Source: Pseudomonadota bacterium (lineage in GTDB: Bacteria; Pseudomonadota; Alphaproteobacteria; Rickettsiales; SXRF01). From it: a stretch of 33,074 nucleotides of DNA. The notes beneath the pieces were generated by a model. It saw only the letters and a list, made by a program, of their open reading frames with translations, did no database searches and was not told the origin of the DNA. This document shows, one piece after another, positions 3,058 through 11,340 of the stretch. Location: contig CAUJIB010000049.1 in NCBI GenBank assembly GCA_963205245.1, positions 1-33,074 of the forward strand, read 5' to 3'. The first letter of the stretch is position 1; the number at the start of each line of letters is the position of its first letter. Position numbers and translations under genes: made by a program.

Positions 3058-4323
3058 ATGAAAATATACCGTAAATTTCCAATTGAATATAGAAAGCTGC
3101 AAGATTCGCAACAAGGCTCGGTTATGGTGCTGTGGGCTTTGACGTTGTCTGCAACAGTAGGGATGATAGGTATAGGCTTGGAAACCGGAAACTGGTATCT
3201 TACCAAGCGTAACCTTCAATCATCAACAGATGCAGCAGCAATAGGTGCAGCATATGAAAATAATTCAACAGCGCGTACCTCAAGTGCCAGTACGGAAATG
3301 ACACGTAACGGTTTTGGCAGCAGCGCAGGAGTTACGGTCACCGTAAACAATCCTCCGTTAAATGGCAGCTATACCACCAATAGCAACGCTGTTGAAGTCA
3401 TCGCTTCACAACCACAACCTACAATGTTTTCCGCCGTTCTTATGTCACAAACTCCGGTTATAACAGTTCGATCTGTTGCCGTTCGTCAAACGGCTGGTAA
3501 TGCCTGTGTACTAGCTCTAAATAGCCTGTCTGCCGATACATTATTAGCAAGCGGCAGTGCTATACTTAATATGCCCAACTGTATGATCGCCGCCAATTCC
3601 ACTAATAACGGCGCTATTGACATCAAGGGTAATAGCACCGTTACAGTTCAGGGATTATATACACCCGGTAGTTATAGCGTAAACGGCTCGGCAGTCCTAA
3701 CCAGTTCTACAACCCCTGTTACTGATGGTAATCCATTGCCAGACCCGTATTCCAGCTTAGCTATCCCCTCATATTCAGGATGTGATTACAATAATTACTC
3801 TACCAACAACACTATCACAATAAATCCTGGTGTATATTGCGGCGGATTCTCACTTAATGCCCATGCCGATGTTACTATGAACCCCGGCGTTTACATTATG
3901 GATAGTGGAAGTTTTAGCATAAACGGGCAGGCCACTCTAACCGGTACAGGTGTTACCATTATCTTAACCAGCAGCACTGGCAGCAGCTACCCTACAGTTA
4001 GTATTAACGGTGGTGCGGAAGTAAATTTAACAGCCCCTACCAGTGGCACATATTCCGGCATGGCATTTTACCAAGATAGAAATGCACCCCTCAATAATTC
4101 TAATAGCTTTAATGGCGGCTCTACTATGAATATTAATGGCTCTGTTTATTTCCCTAAAGGTCAGACCACATTTAATGGAGGAAACTCTATAACAACTCCA
4201 TGTACACAAATTGTGGCCTATACTATAACTTTTAACGGCAATAACACCACGTCAATCAATTGCCCGACCAGCAACAGTATAACTCCAATAACAATACCAG
4301 CTTCTGTGACGTTAGAGGAATAG
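3058..4323 (+). CDS. TadG-like (Tad-domain) protein with repetitive Asn/Gly/Ser/Thr-rich C-terminal region
   Basis: N-terminal QQGSVMVLWALTLSATVGMIGIGLETGNWYLTKRNLQSSTDAAAIGAA is typical of TadG/Tad-domain proteins; C-terminus repeats motifs such as FSLNAHADVTMNPGVYI and FSINGQATLTGTGV. Confidence 0.8.
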   Translation: MKIYRKFPIEYRKLQDSQQGSVMVLWALTLSATVGMIGIGLETGNWYLTKRNLQSSTDAAAIGAAYENNSTARTSSASTEMTRNGFGSSAGVTVTVNNPPLNGSYTTNSNAVEVIASQPQPTMFSAVLMSQTPVITVRSVAVRQTAGNACVLALNSLSADTLLASGSAILNMPNCMIAANSTNNGAIDIKGNSTVTVQGLYTPGSYSVNGSAVLTSSTTPVTDGNPLPDPYSSLAIPSYSGCDYNNYSTNNTITINPGVYCGGFSLNAHADVTMNPGVYIMDSGSFSINGQATLTGTGVTIILTSSTGSSYPTVSINGGAEVNLTAPTSGTYSGMAFYQDRNAPLNNSNSFNGGSTMNINGSVYFPKGQTTFNGGNSITTPCTQIVAYTITFNGNNTTSINCPTSNSITPITIPASVTLEE

Positions 4324-4327
4324 CGAT

Positions 4328-4783
4328 ATGTTATTTATATTTAGGAAAAAACTAAAAGCATTTTATTCTGATTGCCAAGGCTTGGCGGCATTAGAGATGG
4401 CTCTTATTATAAGTGCTGTATTTGCCGCCACACCGCTTATTTTTGATCTGGCAGCAATAATTAATGCCTCTAATACTCTTGGGGGTGGCTTACGCGCCGG
4501 TGTGCAGCTTGCTACTTTTCAACCAAGTAACACTTCTGGCATAACTCAGACTATACAAACAGCCAGTGGTTTTGAAGCTAATTCAGTAACCGTCAGCACA
4601 TCTGAATTTTGTGAATGCTCTGGAGTTAGTGCCACTTGTGGCGTTGCTTGTTATGGGGGAGCTAATCCATATAAATATATAACTTTAACCGCCAATTATT
4701 CTGTCCCAGTTCTTCTAAAATATCCGGGATTTGACAATGCAACTTATCCAATAAGCAAATCCATAACCGTTCGTACCCAATAA
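4328..4783 (+). CDS. TadE/TadG-like pilus-assembly protein
   Basis: Short charged leader, then CQGLAALEMALIISAVFAATPLIFDLAAII; lies 4 nt after the TadG-like gene. Confidence 0.75.
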   Translation: MLFIFRKKLKAFYSDCQGLAALEMALIISAVFAATPLIFDLAAIINASNTLGGGLRAGVQLATFQPSNTSGITQTIQTASGFEANSVTVSTSEFCECSGVSATCGVACYGGANPYKYITLTANYSVPVLLKYPGFDNATYPISKSITVRTQ

Positions 4784-4787
4784 AATT

Positions 4788-5186
4788 ATGCAAAACAAAC
4801 TAAAAAAACTTTGGAAAAACAATGAAGGTTCAGAAGCCATAGAGATGGCCTTTGTGCTTCCTGTTTTCTTATTATTTGTACTTGGCATTATTGAGTTCGG
4901 TAGAGCATACTGGATTATGCATTCTATGCAGCTTTCTATAGATGAAGCAGGAAGATATGCAATGCTGAATACAACAGCAAGCGATACGCAAATAGTTTCC
5001 ACGGCAAAAGGCAACCTTTATGGATTAAACTCCAATGATTTTACTGTAACATCTACATCGCAAACTATAAGTGGGGTAAATTATAAACGCATTGTCGCAA
5101 CTTATGTTTTTTCATTTACTGTACCGAATCTTTTACCATTTGGTAATTTAACCCTTACCCGTCAAACTACAGTTCCGCTTTTATAG
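4788..5186 (+). CDS. TadE-family pseudopilin-like protein
   Basis: NNEGSEAIEMAFVLPVFLLFVLGIIEFGRAYWIMHSMQLSIDEAGRYAM is a classic TadE-like N-terminus. Confidence 0.85.
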   Translation: MQNKLKKLWKNNEGSEAIEMAFVLPVFLLFVLGIIEFGRAYWIMHSMQLSIDEAGRYAMLNTTASDTQIVSTAKGNLYGLNSNDFTVTSTSQTISGVNYKRIVATYVFSFTVPNLLPFGNLTLTRQTTVPLL

Positions 5187-5263
5187 ATCATATATCCTTC
5201 ATAATAAAATATTTTACTTATAGCCCCTTGCATATTCATATATAAACAAGTAGTTTATCCGTC

Positions 5264-6067
5264 ATGAGACGTTACAAAACAAACAACTGTTTTTTTGCTA
5301 TGGGTTTAAGCGTAGCATTGCTTTCAGGTTGCGACCAGATAGAGAGTTCACAAGAAAACCCTAAAACTGAAATTGAAACAGAATTACTCCGTAAAAATGG
5401 CAATAATCTGGTTGAAAGCGGAAAAGCAGAGGAGGCTGTTATTGTCTTCGATAAAATACTGGAATCAGATCCTAAAAATATTTTGGCTTATAACAGTAAA
5501 GCTATAGCTTTTGATCATGGAGGCAACCATCTCGCAGCACAGGATATTTATCAAGCTGCGCTATCAATAGATCCTGAATCACTTCTTATTAAAAATAATC
5601 TGGCTATGTCTCTTATCCTTAATCAACAGGCAAAACAGGCAATTGAAGTTCTTGAACCTATAGTAAAAGATGCTAAGAACAAAAAATCTCCGCACGTATC
5701 CATTATACGCCATAACCTTGCCTTAGCATACGGTGTTTCCGGACAACAGGAAAAAGCGACAAAACTGAACCTACAGGATATGAACAAAGAGCAAGCACAA
5801 GAAAATATTGTATTTTATGAAAAATACAGCAAGATTTACAATAAGCCAAAATCAAAAGACAATAGTGACAAGGAAACAAGTTCTTATAATTCAAAAAACA
5901 ATATTGGCTTTATAACTACTCCCCCACCTCCTCCGCAGATGCTCAAAAAACCAGATGTACCTGTAAAAATCTCCACAAAAAATACTGTAAAACCTGAATC
6001 TAAAACCACAACCATAGAGGATTCCACATTTTTTGGTAAGGATACGGTTTATAGCTACCCCAAATAA
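5264..6067 (+). CDS. TPR-repeat lipoprotein (TadD-like)
   Basis: Lipobox ALLSGC; TPR-like repeats (LRKNGNNLVESGKAEEAVIVFDKILESDPKNILAYNSKAIAFDHGG); proline-rich C-terminal tail. Confidence 0.75.
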   Translation: MRRYKTNNCFFAMGLSVALLSGCDQIESSQENPKTEIETELLRKNGNNLVESGKAEEAVIVFDKILESDPKNILAYNSKAIAFDHGGNHLAAQDIYQAALSIDPESLLIKNNLAMSLILNQQAKQAIEVLEPIVKDAKNKKSPHVSIIRHNLALAYGVSGQQEKATKLNLQDMNKEQAQENIVFYEKYSKIYNKPKSKDNSDKETSSYNSKNNIGFITTPPPPPQMLKKPDVPVKISTKNTVKPESKTTTIEDSTFFGKDTVYSYPK

Positions 6068-6077
6068 TTCTCCATTA

Positions 6078-6105
6078 TTGACTTAATTTAACAAGAGCCT
6101 ATAGT
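6078..6105 (+). promoter_or_regulatory. Putative sigma70-type promoter of the kdp operon
   Basis: TTGACT (6078-6083), 16-nt spacer, TATAGT (6100-6105); 33 nt ahead of the first micro-ORF. Confidence 0.5.
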
Positions 6106-6137
6106 GTGCTTTCGTAATCAACAAACAAGAGAATAAA

Positions 6138-6224
6138 ATGTTTTCATTTTTTGTGCTTGGTACATCATTCTTTATCATAACCTATGCTTTTATATGGCTA
6201 TGTGATTCCTTGAAGGAAGAGTAA
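6138..6224 (+). CDS. 28-aa membrane micropeptide upstream of kdpF (not in supplied ORF track)
   Basis: ATG...TAA translates to MFSFFVLGTSFFIITYAFIWLCDSLKEE; one predicted TM helix; AGAGAA upstream; 2 nt before kdpF. Confidence 0.6.
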   Translation: MFSFFVLGTSFFIITYAFIWLCDSLKEE

Positions 6225-6226
6225 TT

Positions 6227-6316
6227 ATGGAGCTTTATATTATAGTTGGAATTATAGCTTTAGTTCTGTTTGTATATCTTGTTGTTGCGACCATTAAACC
6301 AGAAATTTTTCCATAG
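6227..6316 (+). CDS. kdpF: K+-transporting ATPase subunit KdpF (not in supplied ORF track)
   Basis: Translates to MELYIIVGIIALVLFVYLVVATIKPEIFP, matching the KdpF pattern (single TM helix, ...YLV..ai.PE.F); GGAAGAG Shine-Dalgarno; directly before kdpA. Confidence 0.9.
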   Translation: MELYIIVGIIALVLFVYLVVATIKPEIFP

Positions 6317-6331
6317 AATTTTCTTAAAATT

Positions 6332-8083
6332 ATGCCTACATACATTCATATTATATTATGTTTAGCTATTGTCACATTTAGTATAAAACCCCTTGGTATC
6401 TATATAGCTAATGTGTTCATGGGAAAACGAACCATATTAAGGAAATTACTTGGCTGGCTGGAAATATTAATTTACAAAATATGTAGTATAAATAACAAAG
6501 AAGAGATGGATTGGGTGCGCTATGCCAGCTCCATGGTTTTATTTGGTTTTTTAGGCTTTGCATTATTATTTTTTATTTTAATTTTTCAAAATTTCCTTCC
6601 CTTAAATCCACAGAACTTTGCAGGCGTTGCCCCAGACATTGCTTTTAATGCTGCCATAGGTTTTGTTACTAATGGTAACTGGCAGAGTTATGCTGGAGAA
6701 AACACCCTAAGTAACTTTTCACAAACTATCGGTCTTGCTGTACAGAATTTTGTGTCAACTGCCACCGGAATGGCAGCTTTTGCTGCTCTTGCCCGCGGTT
6801 TTTCCCGCAGGCAAACCAAAAATATAGGTAATTTTTATGTAGATGTAGTACGCGGCACTTTATACATATTCCTTCCTTTATCCTTTATTTTTGCTGTTTT
6901 TTTAACTTCCCAAGGGGTCATACAGAATATCTCCCCATATATTGAATATGCACCTCTTGAAAATTCCATTGCCGTAAATAATGATAACGAATCACACCCA
7001 AAATTAATTCCACAAGGAGCAGTCGCTTCACAGGTTGCAATCAGAACCATAGGTAGCGGCGGCGGAGGTTTTTTTGCGGTAAATGGTGCTCATCCTTTTG
7101 AAAACCCTACTCCCCTTACTAACTTTTTCCAGATCATAGCTATTTTACTAATACCGACTGCTATTATTTATGCTTTTGGTGTTATTATAGGTGACAGAAG
7201 GCAAGGCTGGGCATTGCTTGCAGTTATGTCTATAATCTTTATTCCGTCTCTTATAACCACAATTATATACGAGCAAAGCCCTAATCCATTATTCAATGAA
7301 AAAATAATTGATAGTTCTGCTGGCAATATGGAAGGTAAAGAAGTCAGATTCGGGACAGCTAACGCCTCTCTAAGGGCAACCGTAGCAACTGCTACATCTA
7401 ACAGCTCTCCTAATTATATGTTGGATTCTTTTTCACCACTTGGAGCACTAGCACCTATTATCCTGACCCAATTCAGTGAGGTTATTTTCGGCGGTATCGG
7501 AAGTGGTCTTTATAATATATTGGCATTTGTGATTCTTACTGTATTTATAGGCGGTCTTATGGTTGGTCGTGCGCCTGAATATATGGGCAAAAAGATAAGT
7601 ACATTTGATATAAAAATGGCATCAGTTATTATAATAGTTCCAGCAATGGTTGTATTATTTGGAACCGCTATAGCGGTTTCTACCGAGGCAGGTAAGGCTG
7701 GAATTTTTAATTACGGCGCACAAGGTTTTACCGAGATACTATATGCTTTTTCTTCTGCTGGAAATAATGATGGCGGTTCATTCGCCGGTCTAAAAACCAA
7801 TAGTGAATTTTATAATATCGCTCTTGCTATATCCATGTTCTGCAGTCGTTATTTTGTAATAACCTCTGCTATTGCTATTGCCGGTTCTTTTGCGAGTAAG
7901 AACATTTCTCCCATAAACGCGGGAACTCTGCCAACCCATACACCTAGTTTTGTATTCCTGCTGACTTGGATACTTATTATGGTGGGTATATTAACTTATA
8001 TTCCGTCAATTGTTTTTGGTCCAATTGCAGAACATCTTCATATAGAAAACCTAAAAAACAATAATATGATGACAATAAAATGA
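6332..8083 (+). CDS. kdpA: K+-transporting ATPase subunit KdpA
   Basis: Motifs [72 protein letters not shown]. Confidence 0.97.
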
Positions 8084-10149
8084 GCAGCCATAAAGTACAA
8101 CCTAAAACTATTAATATTACCAGATCTATAATTCAGGCATTTGTAAAATTGTCACCTGTGGTGCAATTACGAAATCCCGTAGTATTTGTTGTATATCTCG
8201 GGACTATTGTAGTTTCTGGGTTATATGTCGCGCAATTATCTGGTATGAAAGTTGGTAATGAACCAGCGTGGTTTACTTTATCAGTTGCGATATGGTTATG
8301 GATTACAGTTTTATTTTCCAATTTTGCCGAAAGTCTTGCTGAAGACAGGGGAAAGACGCAGGCGGAAAGCCTGAGAACATTGAGGAAAGAAGTAAATGCA
8401 AAAAAAATCCGCAATATAGACAAAAAGGAAGATTATGAAACAATTCCAGCATCGAGGCTGTGTAAGGATGATTTAGTTCTGATAGAAGCAGGAGACCCTA
8501 TTCCTAGCGACGGGCAAGTAGTTTATGGTATTGCTTCAGTGGATGAAAGTGCAATAACTGGAGAATCAGCCCCTGTTATCCGCGAATCAGGAGGTGATTC
8601 AGATGCAGTTACCGGCGGAACGCGTGTTCTTTCTGACTGGATAATAATAAGGATAACAGCCAATGCCGGAGAAAGTTTTATTGACCGGATGGTATCACTT
8701 GTAGAAGGTGCAAAGCGGCAAAAAACTCCTAATGAAATTTCCCTTTCTGTTTTTCTTGCCATGCTTACAGCTACATTTCTTATTACAATAATAACCCTTT
8801 TACCTTTTTCCATTTTCAGCGTTGAGCAAAACGGTACGGGACAGGTAGTTAGTTTAACTGTTTTGGTGGCGTTGCTTATCTGCCTTTCTCCAACAACTAT
8901 TGGCGGGCTTATTTCTACAATAAGTATCGCTGGGATGAATCGCCTGCTTAAAGCCAATGTTATTGTTTCATCAGGGCGTGCCGTAGAAGCAGCAGGAGAT
9001 ATAAACTGTATCCTACTTGATAAAACAGGAACAATTACCCATGGCAACCGCCAAGCAGAAGAGATTTTTCCTGCTGCTGGCATAAATATTGAAGAAGTAG
9101 CAAAATCTGCGCAATTATCTTCTTTTATGGATCAGACACCGGAAGGTAAAAGCATATTGTCACTGGTACGTTCAAAATATTATTTTCCAGATATTACCGT
9201 CGGTCCAGAGGGTAGTGAATTTATTGAATTTAGTGCTGAAACACGTTTAAGCGGTATAAAAATCGGTAACCGCCTTATCCTTAAAGGTGCATCTGATTCT
9301 ATAGAAAAACAATTACAGCTTACTGGTTCTAAAATCCCTGAAGATTTACGCCGCAAGATTGATGATATATCCCGTCTTGGCGGCACAGCTTTGGTGTTGA
9401 TGGATAACGGACGGGCATTAGGTGTTATTTACTTAAAAGATATAATTAAGACGGGAATAAAAGAACGTCTTGCCGACCTCCGCAAAATGGGTATCAGGAG
9501 CATAATGATTACTGGTGATAACCCTCTTACCGCCGCGGCTATTGCAGCTGAAGCAGGGGTTGATGATTATCTGGCACAAGCAACGCCTGAGCAAAAACTC
9601 AAGCTGATACGTAAAATGCAGACAAGTGGTGAGCTGGTCGCTATGGTTGGTGACGGTACGAACGATGCCCCTGCACTTGCCCAATCAGACGTAGCAGTAG
9701 TTATGAATAGCGGCACGCAAGCTGCTAAAGAAGCTGGAAACATGATAGATCTGGATTCTGATCCTACTAAAATTATTGAAATTGTAGAAATCGGCAAACA
9801 ACTACTCATGACACGCGGTTCAATGACAACCTTTTCTATAGCTAACGAAGTTGCCAAATATTTTACGCTGATTCCTGCTTCTTTTATCAGCACATATCCC
9901 GAATTAAATTATCTGAATATCATGCACTTGACTTCACCAATTTCTGCGATTTTATCAGCAATAATTTTTAATGCTCTGGTTATAATCGCCTTTATACCGC
10001 TAGCACTTAGAGGGGTTACCTACCGTCCTGTAAGTGCAGCGGCTCTTTTACGCCACAACTTGCTTATATATGGATTAGGAGGACTATTAGTGCCATTTAT
10101 TGGAATTAAGGTGATTGACATTATACTTACTATTATAGGGGCTGTATAA
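8080..10149 (+). CDS. kdpB: K+-transporting ATPase subunit KdpB (P-type ATPase)
   Basis: [11 protein letters not shown] phosphorylation site, [73 protein letters not shown] overlap with kdpA. Confidence 0.98.
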
Positions 10150-10150
10150 T

Positions 10151-10753
10151 ATGAACGGTAAAAATGATATTAAAAGCCTAATCGCCTCTGTCCGTACTGC
10201 ACTTAGCCTCCTTGTTGTGCTAACCATTCTCTTGGGTGTAGTTTATCCTTTAGTAGTGACTGTAATTGCAAAAATATTTTTTGCAGACGCGTCGTCAGGC
10301 AGCCTTATTAGCAGGGACGGGAAAATAATCGGTTCACACCTACTTGCCCAGAATTTTACTGATCCTAAATATTTTTGGGCTAGACCATCACAGAATAATT
10401 ATAATGCCATGGATTCCGCAGGAACTAATTTAAGCCCTGCAAACCCTAAACTATTGGAAGCGGTTTCTGCCCGCACTCAAACCTTGCAAAAAGCTGATCC
10501 TGATAATAAGGACAAAATACCTGTTGATTTGGTTACCGCCTCTAGCAGCGGTCTTGATCCGCATATAAGTGTTGCTGCTGCTAAGTATCAGTCTTCCAGA
10601 ATCGCCAATGCACGCAAAATAAAACTGGAAGAAGTTCAGGTGTTGATAGATGGTAACACAAATTGGCAAAGCCAGTTTTTTGGTGAACCATATGTAAATG
10701 TCCTAGAACTGAATCTGGCACTTGATGAATTAAAGAATGAAGAAAAAAATTAG
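10151..10753 (+). CDS. kdpC: K+-transporting ATPase subunit KdpC
   Basis: N-terminal TM with LLGVVYPLVVT; YFWARPS, SSSGLDPHIS motifs; 1 nt after kdpB. Confidence 0.97.
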   Translation: MNGKNDIKSLIASVRTALSLLVVLTILLGVVYPLVVTVIAKIFFADASSGSLISRDGKIIGSHLLAQNFTDPKYFWARPSQNNYNAMDSAGTNLSPANPKLLEAVSARTQTLQKADPDNKDKIPVDLVTASSSGLDPHISVAAAKYQSSRIANARKIKLEEVQVLIDGNTNWQSQFFGEPYVNVLELNLALDELKNEEKN

Positions 10754-10767
10754 GGAATGCTTCTTTA

Positions 10768-11340
10768 TTAACGGTCAAGTATTGCTGATTTGAAATGCTC
10801 GCCTATACCGATTCTTTTAGCATATTCCATTCTGTTATCTACGATATCAGCGTCTAAGTCCCTAAATATTTTTACTATTTTATCTTTATTCGTATCAGAA
10901 AAAATTGCGCGCACAGCAAATATCTCTTTAACATCTGAAGATATTGTATTTTTATCGCATAAATTATCAACATGGTTTTGTATAGTTACCCAATTTTCTT
11001 CTAGGTATTTTGCCATTTGCCTAAAAATCCCAGTATTATTAAACTGTTTTACCAACTGGTCTTTTTTATCCTGCTTGCTGATAAATGATTTTGAATAATA
11101 ATTATCACCACTAATCTCGGCAATCCGTGCGGCAAGATCTTTATGTTCTAAAAAAGGATTGATTTTTGACTCACCACCTATAGTTTTTATATCAGGTAGA
11201 ATTTCAAGGACTGATTTTATTGATTGCAGGTTTTCTATAATCTCCGGATTATCAATTAATAATTTTTTGCTCTTAAAAATTCTTGCAACTTCTTTAACTT
11301 TATTAATAGTATCTGAGATCGGGGTTTTGATCATTGTCAT
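10768..11340 (-). CDS. Hypothetical protein (190 aa), apparently third gene of the amidase–PBP1A operon
   Basis: Starts 11 nt after the PBP1A stop; AAGGA Shine-Dalgarno overlaps that stop region; no recognised family. Confidence 0.7.
   Translation of the reverse strand: MTMIKTPISDTINKVKEVARIFKSKKLLIDNPEIIENLQSIKSVLEILPDIKTIGGESKINPFLEHKDLAARIAEISGDNYYSKSFISKQDKKDQLVKQFNNTGIFRQMAKYLEENWVTIQNHVDNLCDKNTISSDVKEIFAVRAIFSDTNKDKIVKIFRDLDADIVDNRMEYAKRIGIGEHFKSAILDR

Follow-up and report, generated by a model that had tools for sequence, protein, structure and literature searches.

A conserved single-helix peptide encoded ahead of kdpF as a candidate accessory component of the KdpFABC potassium pump

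The short open reading frame that precedes kdpF in the stretch of DNA analyzed here (the window, 33,074 nucleotides) is a real gene for one member of an ancient family of single-helix membrane proteins, about 27 residues long, that belong to the kdp operon. We refer to this family, and to its member in the window (ORF1), as P; by its conservation P is the translated gene of an ancient family, its translation being indicated by the selection that acts on it. In the explanation that we favor, to which we assign a probability of roughly 0.6, the P helix would be oriented N-out/C-in and pack against the membrane helices of KdpFABC as KdpF does. P would be made together with KdpF through translational coupling and act as an accessory subunit or stabilizer of the potassium pump, and enterobacteria and pseudomonads would either have lost P or have lacked it from the start. 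This reading is preferred because P is linked to kdp, is under selection nearly as strong as that on KdpF, and is similar to KdpF in size and topology, although the linkage to kdp would suit a regulator too. The mechanism and the structures of KdpFABC, a textbook system for high-affinity potassium uptake, were worked out on the E. coli complex. Since E. coli KdpFABC works without P, the basic pump does not need the peptide, and the loss or original absence of P in enterobacteria would account for its absence from the E. coli structures.

The original prediction placed two tandem micro-ORFs, 2 nt apart, between a putative promoter and kdpA. Their coordinates, spacing and translations were reproduced here (Table 1). 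The second micro-ORF, a single-helix ORF 15 nt before kdpA, had been called KdpF. It scores 22.8 bits against the Pfam KdpF family PF09604 and so passes the cut-off of 21.2, though its 24.8 bits against TIGR02115 fall slightly below the cut-off of 26.85; on these profile scores we identify it as KdpF. Because the last codons of ORF1 are Shine-Dalgarno-like for kdpF, the two genes are probably translationally coupled. The promoter was borne out in part: the TTGACT-16-TATAGT element is present, but it is weak: chance alone should produce matches of this kind in an AT-rich stretch, and two sites were found against 2.8 expected from shuffles.

Table 1. Features of the kdp operon in the window.
Feature	Positions	Strand	Remarks
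Promoter-like TTGACT-16-TATAGT	6078-6105	+	Upstream of ORF1; 10/12 matches; weak
Shine-Dalgarno-like AAGAGA	6127-6132	+	5 nt 5' of the ORF1 ATG; read from sequence
ORF1 (P)	6138-6224	+	28-aa single-helix membrane peptide; translation MFSFFVLGTSFFIITYAFIWLCDSLKEE
AAGGAAGAG, the final three codons of ORF1 (AAG GAA GAG)	6213-6221	+	Shine-Dalgarno-like for kdpF; read from sequence
ORF2 (kdpF)	6227-6316	+	29 aa; translation MELYIIVGIIALVLFVYLVVATIKPEIFP; PF09604 and TIGR02115 scores in text
kdpA	6332-8083	+	PF03814, 677 bits; TIGR00680
kdpB	8080-10149	+	TIGR01497, 960 bits
kdpC	10151-10753	+	PF02669; NF001454

Several features of the surrounding DNA were recorded. On the same strand, positions 3058-6067 hold three ORFs that by eye resemble Tad/TadE-type pilus-associated genes, together with a TPR lipoprotein-like gene; the latter ends 70 nt before P, and readthrough into kdp is therefore possible. 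KdpA of this genus is divergent, with 677 bits in the window against 740-840 in relatives. Its filter-like motifs depart from consensus, including the TNTNWQxYSGE and SAANNNGSAFAG motifs, and these departures are partly common to one genus mate (L019) and much less so to another (L018). The kdpDE genes are not found 3' of kdpC (10151-11340), where a 190-aa ORF on the minus strand (10768-11340) converges with kdpC and had no convincing family match in Pfam and NCBIfam searches. A KdpD-domain gene lies on a separate contig both in this genome (G000, contig C38:12564-13193) and in a genus mate (G003, contig C20), unlike many relatives, in which it is adjacent to kdp.

Selection on P was estimated from 52 disjoint pairs of loci picked by the nucleotide identity of P. 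The dN/dS ratio in the P frame was 0.29, near the 0.23 obtained for KdpF from the same pairs; the other two frames of the same DNA gave 1.03 and 1.66, and the spacer upstream of P gave 0.86-0.96. These values point to purifying selection on P in its own frame alone, and no frameshifts were found in relatives. Short ORFs are frequent in AT-rich DNA, and ORF1 might on that ground be a chance ORF without function. Conservation and frame-specific selection rule this out, the whole-genome profile scans described below also speak against it, and we give it negligible weight.

Members of the P family are 26-34 residues long, with one helix and the consensus MxD-hydrophobic-FF-...-Y-xxx-C[DE][RK]L. 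Among 209 unique sequences, F14 is conserved in 86%, Y20 in 56%, C24 in 72%, D/E25 in 75% and R/K26 in 79%, and the final residue is L, I, V or M. An acidic position 3 is a common, not universal, feature of P: D3 occurs in 88% of these sequences, and no acidic residue is present there in the window peptide or its two genus mates. The window peptide scores 46.9 bits against the seed profile, in which it is itself included. It has F at alignment position 14 and ends in CDSL, with S in place of R/K. The Tyr...Cys-Asp-Ser-Leu end singled out in the original prediction is the local form of the C-terminal C[DE][RK][LIVM] motif, in which the Cys is only 72% conserved. The N-terminal tails of the 209 sequences contain 176 acidic residues and 1 basic residue, and the C-terminal tails 330 basic and 217 acidic residues. 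Because the N end is acidic and the C end basic, the positive-inside rule predicts an N-out/C-in topology; judged from charge, the N terminus is most likely periplasmic and the C[DE][RK]L end cytoplasmic.

In loci that bear the motif, all six arginine codons and all four codons for D/E are in use, and it is therefore the peptide, not a DNA signal, that is conserved. Conservation of a ribosome site for kdpF at the DNA level was considered as a source of the pattern and set aside, as it covers the AAGGAAGAG end in the window and not C[DE][RK]L, with its varied codons. A related possibility is that ORF1 serves only as a leader: its translation would open the ribosome-binding site of kdpF, whatever amino acids it encodes. 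Consistent with this, the last codons of ORF1 are Shine-Dalgarno-like, and P overlaps kdpF at an ATGA (gap -4) in 39 loci; both make coupling likely in addition to whatever the peptide does. The amino acids of P are nevertheless under selection at the level of KdpF, and D3, F14, C24, [DE]25 and [RK]26 are conserved across phyla. The gene order is swapped to kdpF-P-kdpA in three loci (L118, L119, L175), and in two others (L281, L282) P lies directly before kdpA with no recognizable KdpF between them. Because selection acts on the amino acids of P, a leader-only role is very unlikely, and coupling may be an added effect.

The distribution of P was surveyed by locating kdpA in relatives of the window genome, in its class and phylum, in annotated plasmids and in 80 named genomes that span many phyla. 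Further samples came from Clostridia and from the phyla of a Coriobacteriia and a Melainabacteria genome; Bacteroidota and Planctomycetota were left out of the sampling. The DNA upstream of kdpA was fetched, and its short ORFs were listed and scored with profiles built from the loci. KdpF was recognized in 258 of 295 distinct loci. In 206 of these 258, P immediately precedes kdpF, at gaps of -4 to +54 nt, a count that is not independent because many of these loci also went into training the profile; manual reading of the off-position list added nine loci with another arrangement of P near kdpA. The suggestion in the original prediction that some other kdp operons carry a similar short peptide ahead of kdpF was correct, and the peptide is conserved in related operons.

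P is spread over at least nine phyla. Its carriers in Pseudomonadota include Rhizobium, Bradyrhizobium, Mesorhizobium, Methylobacterium, Sphingomonas, Acetobacter, Paracoccus, Sinorhizobium meliloti and Chromobacterium. Elsewhere it occurs in Acidobacteriota, Chloroflexota (Ktedonospora), Gemmatimonadota, Myxococcota, Melainabacteria, Coriobacteriia and Deinococcus radiodurans and, at weak scores, in Paenibacillus and its relatives in Bacillota. In Clostridia (L316, L318-L322, L329-L333) a P-like variant that precedes a 25-aa KdpF ends in WC[EGQ]KQ or FCSKQ, not in C[DE][RK]L. The kdp leader of E. coli K-12 contains no P-like ORF, and P was not found in loci judged to be from Enterobacteria or Pseudomonas by their KdpF sequences, nor in most of the lactobacilli or photosynthetic cyanobacteria sampled. 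In Providencia, one Lactiplantibacillus, one Enterococcus plasmid and Halobacterium, kdpF has no P before it, and in the phylum of the Melainabacteria genome most loci lack P and KdpF is unrecognized as well. Enteric ORFs before kdpF, such as MPFLYFFYTPP, were rejected as P: they come from a T-rich tract, which we take to be the KdpE site, and the motif is missing. On a KdpA tree (FastTree, 211 proteins), the presence and absence of P requires 13 changes, compared with 42.8 in shuffles, a count that is blind to gain versus loss, and P occurs on both sides of the midpoint root. This distribution fits an old gene that would have been lost several times.

Linkage of P to kdp was also assessed across whole genomes, 27 of which were searched with a profile of 40 sequences (A2). 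In the window genome the window peptide was the sole match (E 2.7e-8), in relatives the stronger matches sat at kdp, and those of the 27 genomes that lack kdpA gave no match stronger than E 0.07. One strong match, in genome G014, fell on a contig without a known kdpA; it proved to consist of P, KdpF and the first KdpA codons at the contig end. As tests of P, the scan of whole genomes and the G014 case suffer less from circularity than the locus count does. The two strands of the loci together gave 14,228 ORFs, and only 3 profile matches above 8 bits lay away from the kdp leader region.

Searches against Pfam and NCBIfam matched ORF1 to no curated family, 40 of its relatives matched neither a family nor KdpF in the same databases, and a profile search of the PDB with P returned no homologue. 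FixS, PetM, BcsF and PsaJ gave weak matches, with E values of 0.016 or worse, that resemble P only in having a single helix, and they were discarded. Descent of P from a duplicated KdpF is not supported by profile comparison, with an hhalign probability of only 24% over 18 hydrophobic columns. P shares with KdpF its operon, a similar length (26-30 aa), one hydrophobic helix, a basic C-terminal end and purifying selection of similar strength. The conserved residues differ, MxD..FF..C[DE][RK]L in P as opposed to Y-L-x-x-A-L-x-x-P-E-x-F in KdpF, and the two genes are neighbors in most loci. By every sequence test made P is not KdpF, and its family is absent from Pfam, NCBIfam and the PDB.

The annotation of P was followed in plasmids by tblastn, in which a Rhizobium-type P matched 164 records and a Methylobacterium-type P had no match. 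P is almost always without a feature in annotated plasmid records; among the matches listed (60 of 164) "hypothetical protein" appears in three, and the gap is slightly overstated because PLSDB gene tables are incomplete. Two of the three calls are on the opposite strand of Rhizobium plasmids, and the third, in Azospirillum lipoferum, is P itself, called as a gene but left unnamed. The description of the peptide as unannotated agrees with these records of relatives in annotated collections, to which the comparison was confined. In the two Rhizobium plasmids (L174:754-930 and L345:226-402), the opposite-strand call adjoins or overlaps the start of P, and P is uncalled. Two small-protein or ribosome-profiling papers on S. 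meliloti and C. crescentus make no mention of kdp in the main text. A 5' UTR of ~100 nt, described as "highly structured", precedes kdpF in Caulobacter crescentus (PMC8552747). By length alone, this is comparable to the P gene, and P may bear on stretches treated as untranslated leader. A single P profile would fill the annotation gap in many genomes.

Together, conservation, coding selection, linkage to kdp and the lack of a curated family agree with the original suggestion that ORF1 may be an overlooked accessory subunit or regulator; the choice between the two falls to the readings weighed here. The main rival to a pump subunit is the idea that P acts in the membrane to regulate the sensor kinase KdpD, so that the operon would feed back on its own control and P would leave the pump untouched. 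There is precedent in MgrB, which acts on PhoQ, and more generally in small regulators of sensor kinases that consist of a single helix. A KdpD-domain protein is present in 57 of 58 P-bearing genomes tested, a co-occurrence that cannot part subunit from regulator because KdpD is almost always present. E. coli, however, has KdpD without P, and enterobacteria and pseudomonads retain KdpF without P. One P-bearing genome rated 100% complete (G481, locus L150) has no PF02702 match, KdpD frames are short (245-438 aa) in P-bearing genomes G704-G706, and only the N-terminal half of kdpD has been reported in D. radiodurans (PMC5716572). Where KdpD is short there would therefore be no full sensor for P to regulate, and we regard a KdpD-directed role as unlikely. 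Alternatively, P could be an assembly or insertion factor for the folding or joining of KdpF, KdpA or KdpC that does not stay in the finished pump. Its place as the first gene of the operon, its fixed position and its small size would agree with such a role, and the present evidence does not separate assembly from stable membership; we consider this reading improbable.

If P is an accessory subunit or stabilizer, as we prefer, E. coli KdpFABC as studied would be a reduced form of the complex, and a non-enteric Kdp complex would offer a concrete target for cryo-EM. The broader proposal, that in most bacteria the Kdp pump has five components and that its ancestral second single-helix subunit was lost in the E. 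coli and Pseudomonas lineages, stands in our view at even odds. A fifth component could have been overlooked for decades because work centered on the four-subunit E. coli complex; in a 2023 review, P1A pumps are presented as four-subunit complexes (PMC10654040).

The only prior hint of P that we found is in the kdp operon of Clostridium acetobutylicum. In 1997 Treuner-Lange et al. reportedly described its orfZ and orfY as small ORFs for hydrophobic peptides and are said to have claimed no wider family for them. The operon is written kdpZYABCXDE, with two genes before kdpA (PMC5401905). The orfZ/orfY pair (kdpZ, kdpY) resembles P/kdpF in standing ahead of kdpA, a likeness of gene order. In the Clostridia loci L316, L318, L320 and L321, a P-like ORF ending in WC[EGQ]KQ stands ahead of a short KdpF, and this pair is possibly orfZ/orfY of C. 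acetobutylicum. Beyond kdp, CydX, AcrZ and the FXYD proteins are tiny helices that tune or stabilize a large membrane complex, with which they are encoded or to which they bind. None of them is linked to kdp and no sequence kinship with P is expected; the likeness is one of mode of action only, in that P would serve KdpFABC as these helices serve their own complexes.
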